From Gemmatimonadaceae bacterium (GTDB lineage: Bacteria > Gemmatimonadota > Gemmatimonadetes > Gemmatimonadales > Gemmatimonadaceae), in assembly GCA_025934775.1 (NCBI GenBank), contig JAICWO010000002.1, positions 248,001 to 312,000 of the forward strand: 64,000 nucleotides of DNA, given 5' to 3'. The notes beneath the pieces are model-generated. The model had not been told where the DNA came from and did not search any database. It saw only the letters and a list, made by a program, of their open reading frames with translations. Numbering within the stretch: position 1 is the first letter of the stretch; each line of letters opens with the position of its first letter. Positions 10,672-63,764 of the stretch are shown here, in pieces. A program made the position numbers and the translations under genes.

Positions 10672-10747
10672 GGCTGCTCCGGTAGAGTCAGTACTCAGAC
10701 AGTGTGATTGGACGATTGGTTGGCGCGGCTCAGCGACGCTCGCCCAC

Positions 10748-10920
10748 GTCATCCCGAGCGACCGAGCGAAGCGGCACCCGCCCATGTCATCCTGAGCGAC
10801 CGAGCGAAGCGGCACCCGCCCGCGTCATCCCGAGCGACCGAGCGACGCGGCACCCGCCCGCGTCATCCCGAGCGACCGAGCGAAGCGAGGGAGTCGAGGG
10901 ATCTGGGCTCGTGGCGCGCG
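10748..10920. repeat. Four tandem copies of a 38-bp GTCATCCCGAGCG repeat
   Basis: GTCATCCCGAGCG or a one-base variant begins at 10748, 10786, 10824 and 10862, an exact 38-bp period. The last copy is longer and runs through GAGTCGAGGGATCTGGGCTC to 10920. These 59 bases (10862-10920) reappear perfectly inverted at 11152-11210. The array lies upstream of the second ADOP gene and has no coding signal. Confidence 0.9.
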
Positions 10921-10988
10921 TGGCCGTCCTGGTGCGATCGCTCCTACAGCCCGCAACCCCTTTCACGTGAATCGGCTTGGACTCCCTA

Positions 10989-11084
10989 GGGAACTACAAT
11001 CGAGCTGAAACTGCATGAAGTGAACGAAGCACCACCTCGGAACCCTCGGTTCGGTTCGTTCGAGTTCGTTGATTTGTAGTTCCC
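10989..11084. repeat. 96-bp inverted-repeat element with GGGAACTACAA ends
   Basis: GGGAACTACAA (10989-10999) is matched by TTGTAGTTCCC (11074-11084). The interior contains GAACGAAGC and a TTCGTTCG stretch that would fold back. A related element with the same end sequence is at 44331-44480. It sits between the two 59-bp arms of the larger inverted repeat, so the structure is nested. Confidence 0.75.
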
Positions 11085-11151
11085 CCTATTCCAAATTGAT
11101 TCGCGAGCATTCAGCAAATTCGCGCGCCAGAGACGAGCACCATGTCGGAAT

Positions 11152-11280
11152 CGCGCGCCACGAGCCCAGATCCCTCGACTCCCTCGCTTCGCTCGGTCGC
11201 TCGGGATGACAGGCGAGGTGTCACTTCGGCTCGCTCGGGGTGACAGGCGCGGCGTCACTTCGGTTCGCTCGGATGACAAC
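11152..11280. repeat. Inverted partner of the 38-bp repeat family plus two partial copies
   Basis: Bases 11152-11210 are the exact reverse complement of 10862-10920. Two degenerate partial units follow (TCACTTCGGCTCGCTCGGG and TCACTTCGGTTCGCTCGG), ending just before the symporter stop codon. With the tandem array at 10748 and the element at 10989 this accounts for most of the 611-bp gap 10672-11282; nothing coding is seen there. Confidence 0.85.
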
Positions 11281-13664: not shown

Positions 13665-14336
13665 CTATTCGATCACGCCTTTGCGGCGCAACGCGTCGTC
13701 GATCTCGGCCTTGAACAGCACGCCCGCCTTGATCTCGGCGACGCGCTTGCTCTCGCGCTCCATGAGCTCCACGACCGCGGACAACACGTCCTCCGCGTGC
13801 GCCCGCGGCACGACGACGACGCCGTCGCGATCGCCGACGACGACGTCGCCAGGACAGACGACCACGCCGCCGCACGCGATGGGCACGTTGATCTCGCCCG
13901 GTCCATCCTTGTCGCAACTCCCTGCGCTGAGGCTGCGGCTGTATGCGGGGAACTCGAGCCGGACGAGATCGTCGACATCGCGGATCGCGCCATCGACGAC
14001 GATTCCGCCGAGCTTCTTGGCGGCGGCGGTCGTGCACATCAATCCGCCGAAGACCGCGCTGGTCGTGTTGCCGCACGTATTGACGACGACGACATCGCTC
14101 GGCTCCGCGACCTGCAGCGCCTTGTGGACCATCAGATTGTCCGCCGGGCGCGCGTTGACGGTGACGGCGATGCCGCAGAGCGGATGGTTGGTGCGCGGCT
14201 GAATGCCGGGGTCCATGAAGTTGAAGCGACCCATGGCGTCGGCGAGGTTGGACGACGCGAGGCCGCGGAAGCAGTCGAGGATCTTGGCGTCGATGCGGGG
14301 CGGGGAGGGGAGGACGCGGAAGCCGAGGATGGGCAT
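13665..14336 (-). CDS. RraA-like / 4-hydroxy-4-methyl-2-oxoglutarate aldolase family protein
   Basis: This is a 223-residue protein of the RraA/HMG-aldolase fold. The active-site stretch runs from FGGLMCTTAAAKKLGG (about 96-111) into VVDGAIRD (113-120), where the Arg-Asp pair binds substrate and divalent metal in the aldolases. Family enzymes cleave 4-hydroxy-4-methyl-2-oxoglutarate or 4-carboxy-4-hydroxy-2-oxoadipate to pyruvate, or decarboxylate oxaloacetate; others only inhibit RNase E. Co-transcription with an aminotransferase and a dicarboxylate/amino-acid symporter favours the catabolic role. Confidence 0.85.
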   Translation of the reverse strand: MPILGFRVLPSPPRIDAKILDCFRGLASSNLADAMGRFNFMDPGIQPRTNHPLCGIAVTVNARPADNLMVHKALQVAEPSDVVVVNTCGNTTSAVFGGLMCTTAAAKKLGGIVVDGAIRDVDDLVRLEFPAYSRSLSAGSCDKDGPGEINVPIACGGVVVCPGDVVVGDRDGVVVVPRAHAEDVLSAVVELMERESKRVAEIKAGVLFKAEIDDALRRKGVIE

Positions 14337-14425
14337 GGACGAGTATGCGGTCGTGCGAGAGAGGGGCGCAAGTTGGGGTCAGCGGGAGGCGAGATGGGAG
14401 CGAGCGGGGAGCGAGGTGCCAGCCG

Positions 14426-15006
14426 CAGTTCCCAGCTCGGCTGTTCGCTATCAGCGACAGCTATCGGAGGAATTTGGATGGCGCTGCGCGCTTTTGGTGA
14501 TGGGCGGGACGGTTCTTTACGCTAGGCTCGAAGTTCTCAATGCGCGGCGAGGCCAGCGTGGGCGACTACAGGAAGCTCTTGGTTTGGCAGCGGGCTACCG
14601 GCCTCGCGCGGCGGGTGCGGGCGCTGGTCGATGCGCTCCCGCCGCGTGAGCGTCGCAATATCGGCGACCAGCTCTTGCGCGCGTCTGGCTCCATTCGCTT
14701 CAACATCGCTGAAGGCGCGGGGCTCAACTCCGACGCGGGCTTTGCGCGGCATCTCCGCATTGCCCCGGGCTCGGCCAACGAGGTCCAAGATCAACTCGCC
14801 GATCTCGAAGCTGTAGGGCTGCTCGCCGAGTCAGACCGCGAGCTTCCGAAGGAAGTTGCCGAAATCCGCGCCATGCTCGCCGTGCTTCATCGCCGCGTCT
14901 CGGCAGACGCCGCGACGTCGAACTCGCCCCGCGCTCACACGGAGCGGCCGCCGTCCAAATTCCTCCGATAGCCGTCGCTGATAGCGAATAGCCGAGCTGG
15001 GAACTG
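14426..15006. mobile_element. 581-bp element: four-helix-bundle gene between 58-bp inverted repeats
   Basis: The left arm 14426-14483 and right arm 14949-15006 are inverted copies with about three mismatches. Both contain CAGTTCCCAGCTCGGCT and GCTATCGGAGGAATTTGGA. Each arm holds a smaller hairpin of REP type, for example around TTCGCTATCAGCGA. The gene's last seven codons and stop lie inside the right arm. The same arms, without a gene, occur at 61021-61269. It is called an element because arms, gene and a gene-less relative recur in one genome; no target-site duplication was confirmed. Confidence 0.7.
14540..14971 (+). CDS. Four-helix-bundle protein (23S rRNA intervening-sequence/S23 family)
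   Basis: This is a 143-residue helical protein of the TIGR02436 type: DYRKLLVWQRATGLAR at about 9-24, NIGDQLLRASGSIRFNIAEG at about 42-61, then two further helices with HLRIAPGSANEVQDQL and AEIRAMLAVL. The family was first seen in intervening sequences inside 23S rRNA genes and is related in fold to Avd of diversity-generating retroelements; its biochemical role is unsettled. Here it is outside any rRNA gene and enclosed by inverted repeats. No ribosome site precedes the ATG. The C-terminal PPSKFLR is encoded by the right arm. Confidence 0.9.
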   Translation: MRGEASVGDYRKLLVWQRATGLARRVRALVDALPPRERRNIGDQLLRASGSIRFNIAEGAGLNSDAGFARHLRIAPGSANEVQDQLADLEAVGLLAESDRELPKEVAEIRAMLAVLHRRVSADAATSNSPRAHTERPPSKFLR

Positions 15007-15045
15007 GCCGCTGGCCGTCAGCGCGCCGTCAGCTCCCAGTCACTC

Positions 15046-16272
15046 TCAGCGCCGGAATGGCCACACGACTCCCTGATTCTCCGCCACCATTCCCATTCCT
15101 TTATATACGAACTTCTGAATTCGCTTCCCCTCGTACGTCTCGGCCGTGAAGATGTTGCCTTTGGAGTCCGTCGCGATCGAGTGCACGGCGAAGAATTCGC
15201 CCGGCTGGCGGCCGCCGTCGCCGAAGCTGGTGAGGATGTCGAGCGACTGCCGGTCGACCACGTACACCATCTCGTTCTTGCCGTCGGCCATGAAGATGTA
15301 CTTCTGCTGCGGGTCGCGGGAGAACGCGATGTCCCACACGCTCCCGTCGCCGGGCGTCCACGGCTTGATGATCTTCTCTTTCACGAACTTGCCATCCTTC
15401 GTGAAGACCTGGAGCCGGTCGTTGACGCGGTCGCACACGTAGACCAGGCCGTCCGGCGTCGGCTCCGCGCAGTGAACCGGGTTCCGGAACTGCGGGTCGA
15501 GCGGCGCGCCGGGGATGTACGGGCCGGGGTTCGAATCCGACGGCACGTGCCCGTACGCGCCCCAGAACCGCTTGATGTGGCCGTCGTCCATGTCCAGCAC
15601 CGCGACGCGCTTGTTGCCATAGCCGTCGGCGATGTACGCCTCGTTCGCCGGCACGTCGAACGCGATCTTCGCCACGCGGCCGAAATGCGTCGTGCTCCGG
15701 CTGTCGACCGTCGCGTGCGGCGTGCCGATCTCCATCAGGAACTTGCCGTCGTGTGTGAATTTGAGAATAAAAGAATCAATGGTGCCGGCCGGGCAGTCGG
15801 CCGTGCCCGGCGGCGGACAGGTGCCGTTGCCGCCGATCCACACGTTGTTCTTGTTGTCGATCGAGATGCCGTGGTTCGACGACGGCCAGTCGTATCCCGC
15901 GTGCGGGCCGCCCCACGCGTTGATCAGGTTTCCCGCCTGGTCGAACTCGAGCACCGGCGGCGCGGGGACGCAGCAGTCGCTCAGCTTCGGGTTCTGCACC
16001 GCGCCGATCTCCGTCTGCGCGTCGAACGTGTCGTTGCGATGCACGATGAACACGTGGTCCTGCGCGTCCACGCCGACGCCGATGACGTTGCCGAGGACCC
16101 AGTGATTCGGCAGCGGCTTGGGCCAGAGCGGGTCGACCTCGAACCGGGGCGCCATCACCGCGTGCCCGCTCTCGCGCGCCACGCGCGCCTCGAGCACGTG
16201 CTGGCCCAGTCCGAGCGCCGCGAGCGCCAGGGCGAGGCCGGAGGCGAAGACGAGCTTTCGCGAGCGGATCAT
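15046..16272 (-). CDS. Exported NHL/six-bladed beta-propeller protein (PAL-like)
   Basis: This is a secreted protein of 408 residues with a signal peptide at about 1-30. The remainder forms an NHL-type propeller resembling peptidyl-alpha-hydroxyglycine alpha-amidating lyase folds. Repeats with ISIDNKNNVWIGG, AYIADGYGNKRVAVLD, VYVCDRVNDRLQVF and ATDSKGNIFTAE are spaced about 50 residues apart. Its start overlaps the end of the paralogue upstream by ATGA. Known relatives are often encoded beside PQQ dehydrogenases and cytochromes, but no catalytic role is established. Confidence 0.85.
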   Translation of the reverse strand: MIRSRKLVFASGLALALAALGLGQHVLEARVARESGHAVMAPRFEVDPLWPKPLPNHWVLGNVIGVGVDAQDHVFIVHRNDTFDAQTEIGAVQNPKLSDCCVPAPPVLEFDQAGNLINAWGGPHAGYDWPSSNHGISIDNKNNVWIGGNGTCPPPGTADCPAGTIDSFILKFTHDGKFLMEIGTPHATVDSRSTTHFGRVAKIAFDVPANEAYIADGYGNKRVAVLDMDDGHIKRFWGAYGHVPSDSNPGPYIPGAPLDPQFRNPVHCAEPTPDGLVYVCDRVNDRLQVFTKDGKFVKEKIIKPWTPGDGSVWDIAFSRDPQQKYIFMADGKNEMVYVVDRQSLDILTSFGDGGRQPGEFFAVHSIATDSKGNIFTAETYEGKRIQKFVYKGMGMVAENQGVVWPFRR

Positions 16273-25400: not shown

Positions 25401-25424
25401 ACGGCGCGGTTAGCCGCGGCGCGG

Positions 25425-25551
25425 CGGTCGCTGTCGTTGTGCGTGGTCCGTCTTCCGTTGTCCGATTTTCCGTCGCGTGGCACGCACGCGCATGATGCGG
25501 TCACGGTCAAACGGAGAACGGACAACGCAGAACGCCTCACGACAGCGACCG
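25425..25551. repeat. 127-bp inverted-repeat element between convergent genes
   Basis: CGGTCGCTGTCGT (25425-25437) is matched by ACGACAGCGACCG (25539-25551). Inside, CGTTGTCCG and CGGACAACG form a second complementary pair. It lies between the stop codons of the flavoprotein and the next cytochrome gene and may act as a two-way terminator. Confidence 0.75.
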
Positions 25552-25579
25552 GCGCGGAATGCCTCCGCGCCGGCCGCCG

Positions 25580-29575: not shown

Positions 29576-30898
29576 ATGCCCGCACGACCGACGACGATGG
29601 GACCGTACGCCTACTATCCCATCGAGTTCACGAAGGACGGCGACGTCTTCCAGCAGCCGCAGCTCGACGCGATCCTGAACGCCGTCGCGCCGCAGGGCGG
29701 GCTCACCGACCTCCTCGTGATCTCGCACGGCTGGAACAACGACATCGCCGACGCCGAGGATCTGTACACGCGGATCTTCGCCCAGGTGAACGCGGTCCTC
29801 GCGCAGCCCGGCGCGGTGACGGACAACGTCCGCGTTCGCCGTGCGGCCGTCGTCGGCATCCTCTGGCCATCAAAGAAGTTTGCTGAGGAATCGCTCATTC
29901 CCGGCGGCGCGGCCGGTCTCGCGGACGGCGGCGTTGCCGACCTCGGCGCGAGCGTCGATCTCCTCTCGCAGTTCCTCGAGTCGCCGGATGCCGCGAAGTC
30001 GCTCGGCCGCGCCAAGGATCTCACCGCCTCGCTCGCCGACGACATGGACGCACGCGACGAGTTCGTGCGCATCGTGCGCGCGTTCATGCCGCACGACGTG
30101 AACGACGAGGAGTCCGTCGTGCCGAACGATCTCTTCGTGCTCGACGGCGACGAGCTCCTGCGGCGATTGAGCCGTCCGGGGCGCGATCAGACGACGAGCG
30201 GCGGCGGCGCCGCGGGGCTCGGCGACTGGATGGGCAAAGCCGTCGACGGCGCGAAGAGCCTCGTCAATCTCGTCACGTACTATCAGATGAAGAACCGCGC
30301 CGGCGTGATCGGAGAGAAGGGCGCGTACGACATGCTGCGGCAGATTCGCGCCGCGCGACCCGCCGACGGCACGAGCGGACTGCGGCTCCATCTCATCGGG
30401 CACAGCTTCGGGTGCAGGCTCGTCACCGCGGCGACCGCCGGGCCCACGGACAGCACGCCGCCGCTGCCGATCGATTCCCTCACGCTGCTGCAGGCCGCGT
30501 TCTCGCACTACGGCTTCGCGCAGGCGTACGACGGCACGCACGACGGATACTTCCGCCGCGTGGTGACCGATCCCACGCGCGTGCGCGGCCCGATGTTGAT
30601 CAGCTTCACGCAGCGCGATCTCGCGGTCGGCCTCGCGTATCCGATCGCGTCGCGCATCGCGCGGCAGATCGCGGCCGCGATCGGTGACGCGAACGATCCC
30701 TACGGCGGCTTGGGACGGAACGGCGCGCAGAAGACGCCAGGCACCACGGTCGTCACGCTCGGCGCACCCGGTACCGCGTACACCTTCGCGCTGCGCGGCG
30801 TCTACAACATGGACGCGAACGCGGTGATCGGCGGCCACTCGGATCTCGCGCATCCGGAGGTGGCGTATGCGCTGCTGGCGGGAGTGGCGGTGACTTAG
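29576..30898 (+). CDS. Alpha/beta-hydrolase-fold protein partnered with the subtilase
   Basis: This is a 440-residue protein. An early LLVISHGWNND (about 46-56) resembles the oxyanion strand-loop of alpha/beta hydrolases, and the nucleophile elbow GHSFG is near 280. A plausible Asp (TQRDLAVG) and a late His (GGHSDLAHPE, near 423) complete a triad. The middle (about 90-240) is a long insertion with Gly-rich stretches. There is no signal peptide. It starts ten bases after the subtilase stop. Lipase, esterase or peptidase activity are all possible; I do not recognise a named family. Confidence 0.7.
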   Translation: MPARPTTMGPYAYYPIEFTKDGDVFQQPQLDAILNAVAPQGGLTDLLVISHGWNNDIADAEDLYTRIFAQVNAVLAQPGAVTDNVRVRRAAVVGILWPSKKFAEESLIPGGAAGLADGGVADLGASVDLLSQFLESPDAAKSLGRAKDLTASLADDMDARDEFVRIVRAFMPHDVNDEESVVPNDLFVLDGDELLRRLSRPGRDQTTSGGGAAGLGDWMGKAVDGAKSLVNLVTYYQMKNRAGVIGEKGAYDMLRQIRAARPADGTSGLRLHLIGHSFGCRLVTAATAGPTDSTPPLPIDSLTLLQAAFSHYGFAQAYDGTHDGYFRRVVTDPTRVRGPMLISFTQRDLAVGLAYPIASRIARQIAAAIGDANDPYGGLGRNGAQKTPGTTVVTLGAPGTAYTFALRGVYNMDANAVIGGHSDLAHPEVAYALLAGVAVT

Positions 30899-31000
<102 letters not shown>

Positions 31001-31084
31001 TCTACCACCCTATACCCTCCACCGGCAAACGGCCATATTTCCCCCACGCCGCCGTCGCGGCGCCCCTCACCTCACGAGGCTTCA

Positions 31085-55071: not shown

Positions 55072-55549
55072 GCTACGGACCTGACGGACGGCGACGAACT
55101 TGACTGAATGACGCTACGGAATGGCGATGAGCTTCTGGAAGAACACCTCTCGCGGTCGGCAATTGGAGCCTTCTACGCCACATATCGCAAGCTTGGATTC
55201 GGCTTCCTCGAGAGCATCTATGTTCTGGGGCTCGAGCGTGAGCTGACGAGCCGGGGTCACCGCGTGGGCCGGGAAGTCGCGGTCCCGGTGTACTATGACG
55301 GCGATATTCTCGCCTATCAGCGCATGGACCTAGTCGTCGACGATCGATTGGTGCTCGAAGTGAAAGCGACCGAGATCCTGCACAAGGATGCTCCCCGTCA
55401 ATTCCTGAACTACCTCCGTTCAACGAATCTGGAAGTTGGTCTCGTGCTTCACTTCGGGCGAGAGCCAAAGTTTCATCGCGTCATCTACGACAAGGACTTC
55501 AAGCAACGCCGAGTCCGTCAAGTTCGTCCAGATTCGTCAGGTTCGTAGC
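55072..55549. mobile_element. 478-bp element: GxxExxY gene between 36-bp inverted repeats
   Basis: Left arm 55072-55107 and right arm 55514-55549 are inverted copies matching at about 29 of 36 positions (shared GCTACG, ACCTGACG, GACGAACTTGAC). The gene starts at the base after the left arm, and its last codons plus stop lie inside the right arm. This is the same architecture as the four-helix-bundle element at 14426-15006, with unrelated arm sequence and gene. Confidence 0.62.
55108..55548 (+). CDS. GxxExxY family protein, PD-(D/E)xK nuclease-like
   Basis: This is a 146-residue protein with the family motif GFLESIY (about 32-38) and YVLGLERELTSRGH behind it. YQRMDLVVDDRLVLEVKA (about 70-87) has the D-x(n)-ExK spacing of PD-(D/E)xK nucleases. 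FLNYLRSTNLEVGLVLHFG completes the fold. The family is patchily distributed and its function is unproven. Enclosure by inverted repeats suggests it moves as a cassette. No ribosome site is obvious. Confidence 0.88.
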   Translation: MTLRNGDELLEEHLSRSAIGAFYATYRKLGFGFLESIYVLGLERELTSRGHRVGREVAVPVYYDGDILAYQRMDLVVDDRLVLEVKATEILHKDAPRQFLNYLRSTNLEVGLVLHFGREPKFHRVIYDKDFKQRRVRQVRPDSSGS

Positions 55550-59415: not shown

Positions 59416-60002
59416 ATGGGCAAGCGAGACAAGCGCGTTGACGCGTACATCGCGAAGTCGGCCGACTTCGCCAAGCCCTCGGTTTCGTACGCGAGGCGGT
59501 GCACGCGGGATGTCCGGATGTTGAGGAAACTATAAAGTGGGGAATGCCGGCGTTCAGCCATGACGGACTGCTGTGCAACATGTCCGCGTTCAAGGAGCAC
59601 TGTCGATTCGGATTCTGGAAAGGCGCGCTCGTCGTGGGCGATGGCGAACCGACGGCGCCGAACGGCCATTTCGGCGACATCACGTCGCTCGCCGATCTTC
59701 CGAACAAGAAGGCGCTCGCGGGCTACGTGAAGAAGGCGGCCGAGCTCAACGCGTCAGGCGTGAAGGTCCAGCGCGCGAAGAAGCCGGCGAAGAAGCCGCT
59801 CCCGGTGCCCGACGACCTCTCGGCGGCGCTCACGAAGAACAAGAAGGCGCGGGCCACCTTCGAGAACTTCGCGCCGAGCCATCAGCGCGAATACGTGGAG
59901 TGGATCACGGAGGCCAAGCAGCCGGCCACGCGCGAACGCCGGCTCGCCCAAGCGATCGAATGGATGGCGGAGGGGAAGCGGCGGAATTGGAAGTATGAGT
60001 AG
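59416..60002 (+). pseudogene. DUF1801/YdeI-family protein, frameshifted near codon 20
   Basis: ATG 59416 opens MGKRDKRVDAYIAKSADFAKP, the usual start of YdeI/DUF1801 proteins, but this frame meets a stop at 59533. The rest of the family sequence continues in another frame, from about 59475 (ALGFVREAVHAGCPDVEE) to 60002, with the DUF1801 block ETIKWGMPAF and the C-terminal OmdA-like region EYVEWITEAKQPATRERR. One base appears missing between 59470 and 59490. Either the gene is broken, or the base is a sequencing error, or translation begins at GTG 59499. Confidence 0.75.
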
Positions 60003-60105
60003 GAGAGTGGAGAGTGGAGCGTGGAGCGTGGAGAGTGGCTACGACTACCGGCGCGCCGTTCGCCTGTCTCTCCACTCTCGACTCTCCCTTCTCGACTCTC
60101 CAGCT
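60003..60105. repeat. Inverted arrays of a GTGGAGM 7-mer
   Basis: Direct units (GTGGAGA/GTGGAGC, 60005-60038) are followed by inverted CTCCACTCTCGACTCTCC units (60067-60103). The period is seven bases, as in the array at 30899-31000. It lies just after the frameshifted gene. Confidence 0.75.
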
Positions 60106-61020: not shown

Positions 61021-61269
61021 CAGTTCCCAGCTCGGCTGTTCGCTATCAGCGACAGCGATCTGAGGAGCTCGGAACGAAGCGTTGAATGGGAGCGCGTGCC
61101 GTGCCCCGCGCGGCCCTCCGAGGATCACTGCCGAACCGGGTGCCCGGACAACTTCCCGCCGTGCCACGCGTGGCGTCCACGCCACCCGAAGCTGACCCCC
61201 GCTCCCATCACACACTTCCAAATTCCTCGGATAGCTGTCGCCGATAGCGAACAGCCGAGCCGGGAACTG
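61021..61269. repeat. 249-bp gene-less relative of the four-helix-bundle element
   Basis: Left arm (from CAGTTCCCAGCTCGGCTG at 61021, to about 61073) and right arm 61218-61269 are inverted and closely match the arms at 14426 and 14949. The 144-bp interior has no coding frame. It resembles a non-autonomous deletion form (MITE or REPIN-like) and fills most of the gap 60968-61292. Confidence 0.8.
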
Positions 61270-63630: not shown

Positions 63631-63764
63631 ATCGCGACGTCGAACCTGAGACCAGTCGCGAGAGCCGAGACTCGAGAGCCGAGATGCGAGACCCGATCGT
63701 GGTCTCGCGGCTCTCAGCTCGGCTCTCGCGTCTCGAAACTGGTCTCGGGCAGCGACGTCGCGAT
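63631..63764. repeat. 134-bp long hairpin, TCTCGAAACTGGTCTCGG family
   Basis: Outer arms ATCGCGACGTCG (63631-63642) and CGACGTCGCGAT (63753-63764) are perfect. Inner arms 63648-63693 and 63701-63746 pair imperfectly over 46 bases. The core matches the hairpin at 22034-22099. It lies upstream of the DUF5916 gene and of the partial gene at the window end. Confidence 0.8.

Follow-up and report, generated by a model that had tools for sequence, protein, structure and literature searches.

The window analysed here, a stretch of 64,000 nucleotides from a Gemmatimonadaceae bacterium, contains a short gene enclosed by two inverted arms of a family that we refer to as F1 (Table 1). The arms are 95% complementary over 58 nt each, are spaced by 465 nt and form the ends of an element of ~580 bp, with F1 similarity continuing outward beyond the left arm to about 14414 and beyond the right arm, as CTGACGGC-like repeats, to about 15050. 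The enclosed gene matches PF05635 (E=1e-23) and TIGR02436 (E=4e-24), which confirms the preliminary description of a four-helix-bundle gene packaged between 58-bp inverted repeats, and its stop codon (14969-14971) indeed falls inside the right arm. A profile of relatives of the encoded protein matches PDB entries 2gsc and 2rld. No other recognisable gene lies between the arms (14426-15006), where the four-helix gene is the sole family-matching open reading frame, and no transposase is encoded there, as had been stated. The neighbouring genes are RraA-like and NHL-repeat genes and the locus (L001) has no Rfam match, such that its placement outside rRNA also holds; across ten element loci, no known RNA family was matched in Rfam.

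Table 1. Features of the window that belong to, or resemble, the elements described in the text.
Feature	Position	Strand	Remarks
Left arm of inverted repeat (family F1)	14426..14483	+	58 nt
Four-helix-bundle gene (23S rRNA IVP type)	14540..14971	+	143 aa, complete
Right arm of inverted repeat (family F1)	14949..15006	-	58 nt
Inverted array with CGGTCGCTGTCGTTG	25420..25556		Resembles arms of four-helix gene G000:C35:204811; score 12.5, below cut-off 14
Gene-less inverted heptamer array (GTGGACC)	30896..31004		Same family as arms of four-helix gene G000:C17:123990
Sister-type element	55072..55549	+	GxxExxY gene 55108-55545; 36-bp inverted arms
Inverted heptamer arrays GAGTGGA / CTCTCCA	59997..60102		Like arms of four-helix gene G000:C12:122018, by eye
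Gene-less F1 element	61021..61269		Arms 61021-61074 and 61216-61269
Gene-less inverted array	63666..63735		Same family as arms of four-helix gene G000:C47:322867

Our own inverted-repeat finder assigns the window arm pair a score of 50.5. When 300 kb of the source genome were shuffled with a first-order Markov model, the same finder returned no inverted pair scoring at least 20, whereas the unshuffled sequence has ~39 per Mb, and a chance inverted repeat was rejected on this basis. Each arm had further been thought to contain a REP-like hairpin. Inspection of the arms reveals the imperfect palindrome GCTATCAGCGACAGC, but their predicted RNA folds are no stabler than those of shuffles (z of -0.91 and +0.70), so that the description of a REP-like hairpin is only partly supported. 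In the gene-less element that starts at 61021, the left arm does fold more stably than shuffles (z -3.49).

The whole source genome was searched for the F1 arm, which returned 28 matches (the gene-bearing pair of the window, 13 pairs without a gene and a lone arm). That is to say, the arms are dispersed over 14 places besides the window copy, and their similarity is not confined to that copy. The same search across 19 relatives, five of them of the same genus, returned 0 matches, where arms fixed at orthologous positions had been named as the other outcome that would weigh against a mobile cassette. The window copy is the only gene-bearing F1 pair, and no F1 pair in the genome encloses any other gene. 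Gene-less pairs are mostly about 245 bp long, with two of 156 bp, and share a conserved interior of their own that is not an evident deletion product of the gene-bearing copy. The conserved F1 arms do not consist of simple heptamer arrays, with GGGCTGA-like repeats present only in the outer flanks of some copies, and these non-heptameric arms make F1 an unusual case within the class described below. Likeness between left and right arms is 0.920 within one F1 copy and 0.932 between different copies; homogenisation of the two arms of a copy was thus not seen in F1, and since arms are no more alike within copies than between them, their pairing is not actively upheld once a copy has inserted. In the single case of the orthologous pair L022/L139, arms match better within a species (19.5, 26) than between species (15, 10.5).

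Comparison with congeners reveals that one gene-less F1 copy (L082:3236-3484) has no counterpart at the syntenic position in congener G004, where 38 bp stand in place of 331 bp. The window copy (14327-15059) lies at a synteny breakpoint; the genes on its left and right are separated from each other in the congeners examined, and for this reason it has no empty site there.

The source genome carries seven PF05635 genes, six of which are located between inverted repeats. The arms differ among these six genes and are mostly arrays with units of about 7 bp. A sample of 1.26 Mb contains 66 gene-less inverted pairs, 26 of which match the arms of one of these six genes at a cut-off score of 14, with 3-6 pairs per gene; shuffled arms match 0 of 66. 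Homology with congeners ends at 59995, beside the array that begins at 59997. Four-helix genes of relatives in the same order are arranged likewise between inverted repeats, and the arms of one of them (L146, from G009 of another genus) have >100 matches in their own genome and none in six other genomes.

To extend these observations across phyla, loci were collected with a profile built from five four-helix proteins. Inverted repeats enclose the four-helix gene at 32 of 69 testable loci from many phyla, compared with 5 of 1263 control positions chosen within the same loci; in other phyla, roughly every second four-helix gene lacks a clear inverted repeat. Of 79 elements, 54 have 7 as their best arm period, the GC skew read inward is positive (G > C) in 67 of 71, and a typical element measures ~500 bp. 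None of nine loci checked in other phyla lies in rRNA, and no phage copies were found. Being G-rich when read inward, the arms provide a Shine-Dalgarno-like run ahead of the gene whichever way it is oriented, as with GGAGTCAGAATAAATG in L287.

Several copies lie inside operons, and there are insertions between nrdB and nrdA and between cas6 and cas4. The latter are found in type I-D CRISPR operons of Anabaena sp. 90 (L281) and Pseudanabaena galeata (L330), and a different, gene-less inverted element occupies the cas6-cas4 interval in Dolichospermum (L291). Such insertions may explain the reported association of 23S IVP with CRISPR loci (PMC10910872). At L082:3204-3536, L287, L288 and L283, the insertion lies immediately at the stop codon that ends the preceding gene. 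Four-helix genes without inverted repeats tend toward sites shared between different species (L026/L151, L137/L141) and are possibly domesticated copies; the gene at L026 lies just upstream of an atpA-like gene.

Direct evidence of movement was obtained from cyanobacterial plasmids. In Trichormus variabilis plasmid C and in Scytonema NIES-4073, the element directly follows a stop codon, and three Nostoc and Tolypothrix plasmids that are ~97% identical to the Trichormus plasmid lack both the gene and the arrays, with a 5-bp duplication (GTAAT) marking the Trichormus plasmid C site. A related element is found in a different operon of Nostoc pNsp_a and pC052_D, where p057_H is empty, and comparison of pNsp_a with p057_H identifies the 5-bp duplication TTCTA. 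These are the only two clear target duplications, and both were seen within a single group of related plasmid elements; a third empty site (L283 versus L301) is clean with an ambiguous duplication. As arrays are absent from the empty sites of plasmids that are 90-97% identical, the gene and arrays arrived in one step. A gene-less array pair (L299) occupies a site at which another plasmid carries the gene, and array length varies between the otherwise alike Trichormus and Scytonema copies. Related four-helix elements at different sites show dN/dS of 0.10-0.15, indicative of purifying selection, and the protein must therefore serve some purpose that outlasts individual moves. Mobility is thus supported for the class and likewise for a gene-less F1 copy; the earlier proposal of a mobile cassette stands to this extent, and the window copy itself shows no direct evidence of movement.

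A second type of gene shares this architecture. Inverted arrays also surround GxxExxY genes (TIGR04256), and in these a period of 9 is found in 7 of 13 cases and a period of 7 in 0 of 13. The GxxExxY element of the window is absent at the syntenic site of congeners G002 and G004, and the reverse case, a site occupied in G005 and empty in the source genome, was also found. GxxExxY genes between inverted arrays constitute a sister class of mobile element. The GxxExxY elements of the window and at L061:13317-13857, L121 and L174 have periods near 9, gene-less relatives and empty sites. An apparently decaying copy (G000:C39:25334-25645, L124) retains inverted arms around a gene with two in-frame TAG codons. 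Yet another dispersed inverted family, GTCATCCCGAGCGACCGAGCG...GAGTCGAGGGATCTGGGCTCGT, occurs at 10741-11278 of the window, at L093:14324-14724 and L074:9887-10213, and also in G004; its arms are separated by 200-275 bp in which no gene was found.

Among known systems, 23S intervening sequences resemble the window element, sharing the protein family, a single short gene (S23p/IVP ORF) and an inverted-repeat stem. They sit in the 23S rRNA gene, whereas the window element lies outside rRNA and has dispersed gene-less relatives, and the four-helix class further differs from them in the empty sites and 5-bp duplications of its plasmid examples. The intervening sequence of Coxiella burnetii encodes the same protein family, carries tandem heptamers (GACAGAT) upstream of its open reading frame and is excised by RNase III (PMC4990558). 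Because it shares both the protein family and tandem heptamers before the gene, we regard 23S intervening sequences as probable members of the same class that landed in an rRNA stem-loop. Mobility of 23S intervening sequences had been proposed earlier (Ralph and McClelland 1993, as cited in PMC4990558). The window element also differs from an insertion sequence, in which a transposase lies between terminal inverted repeats, as it holds only the four-helix gene. The gene-less F1 copies are akin to MITEs in their small size, their dispersal and the inverted repeats at their ends, and in the absence of the L082 copy from the orthologous site of G004; no parent transposon with a transposase was found for F1, as the one copy with a gene codes for nothing but the four-helix protein.

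The heptanucleotide repeats of cyanobacteria (STRR) may be linked to the arrays of the four-helix class. Repeats of this kind (STRR, LSSR, TAACTGA) are like the arrays of the four-helix class in consisting of tandem 7-bp units that are intergenic and vary in number. They have been noted in Beggiatoaceae, cyanobacteria and elsewhere and were attributed to slippage or regulation in a paper that does not mention four-helix genes (PMC4679880). In contrast to these repeats, which are described as direct and of unknown origin, the class arrays are inverted and bracket a gene. A structural link leads to diversity-generating retroelements (DGR), where the accessory protein Avd is a structural relative of PF05635 (Avd 4DWL, 2GSC; PMC10053308) and a reverse transcriptase stands beside the Avd-like gene. 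No reverse transcriptase (PF00078) is matched anywhere in the source genome, and movement based on reverse transcription was rejected for this reason.

We consider it moderately probable that the window element is a gene-bearing member of a widespread class of mobile elements, in which a four-helix gene lies between element-specific inverted arrays. The gene and arms would enter a site together as a single unit, as the plasmid members did, and the gene-less relatives with the same arms in each genome would probably be mobilised in trans. The protein is probably a nucleic-acid-binding ring, pentameric as in solved relatives; a homopentameric toroid is reported for the Xanthomonas protein (PMC4990558). 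In the mechanism that we consider most likely, this ring, bound to its cognate arms folded back in single-stranded DNA or RNA, would recruit enzymes of host replication or repair to make the new copy and join it. The absence of a Y1 transposase and of a reverse transcriptase from the source genome, and of any other gene from between the arms, makes it the simplest reading that the protein works together with enzymes of the host on the arms cognate to it; the family-wide association and purifying selection likewise suggest that it drives mobility. We know of no enzymatic activity for the four-helix fold.

That fold, with no known catalytic site, is also compatible with a passenger gene, which would benefit from sitting inside non-autonomous arrays that an unrelated transposase moves in trans. 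Gene-less copies form the majority of each arm family and GxxExxY genes likewise lie between inverted arrays, as such a passenger would allow. We nonetheless judge this explanation unlikely, as no F1 pair encloses a gene of any other kind, a RAYT was not found in the source genome, a single gene family is associated with differing arms in many phyla, and the protein is under purifying selection between sites. RAYT genes are single-copy genes flanked by the same sequence that occurs as dispersed inverted pairs, an arrangement that F1 shares. A REP/REPIN system (PMC3116915) with a RAYT-like partner, where the four-helix protein merely replaces or regulates the RAYT, is nevertheless very improbable. 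REPIN/RAYT systems have a Y1 transposase and short REP palindromes, whereas Y1_Tnp (PF01797) has no match in the source genome (5 of 14 control genomes match), the protein is instead a four-helix bundle, the arms of the class are mostly heptamer arrays, and those of the window fold no better than shuffles.

Two further explanations were considered. Replication slippage, a process already suggested as the origin of heptanucleotide repeats (Mrazek 2007, as cited in PMC4679880), could produce intergenic arrays between which the gene then spreads by recombination. The differing array lengths of the Trichormus and Scytonema copies fit this idea, but it is contradicted at the two clear sites by empty, 90-97% identical plasmids without an array, which leaves it only a slight chance. 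Equally remote is an immobile RNA element used by the host, where the stem formed by the arms has a part in control or processing of the mRNA and the host cell makes use of the gene. Excision of the Coxiella intervening sequence by RNase III (PMC4990558) and the copies inside operons agree with such a role, whereas dispersal, empty sites and species-specific families contradict it as a complete account. Processing of the RNA might still contribute to the tolerance of insertions.

Returning to the mobile class, we give roughly even chances to its most complete form: a minimal mobile element with a non-enzymatic four-helix protein as its sole gene and element-specific inverted heptamer arrays as its ends, with gene-less copies mobilised in trans, which is the source of 23S intervening sequences and of many heptanucleotide repeats and has a sister class with GxxExxY proteins and 9-bp arrays. 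No paper describing four-helix elements of this kind was found in the open-licence PubMed Central literature, and judged against that literature only, the class appears new.

Where 23S intervening sequences and bacterial heptanucleotide repeats come from, and how they spread, has been asked for decades. If one four-helix protein and its cognate inverted arrays are a complete mobile element, both questions become testable with a plasmid insertion of 430 bp. Were this true, a movement of DNA that proceeds without a recognisable transposase would need to be explained, and a common, uncharacterised family of small proteins would gain a function.
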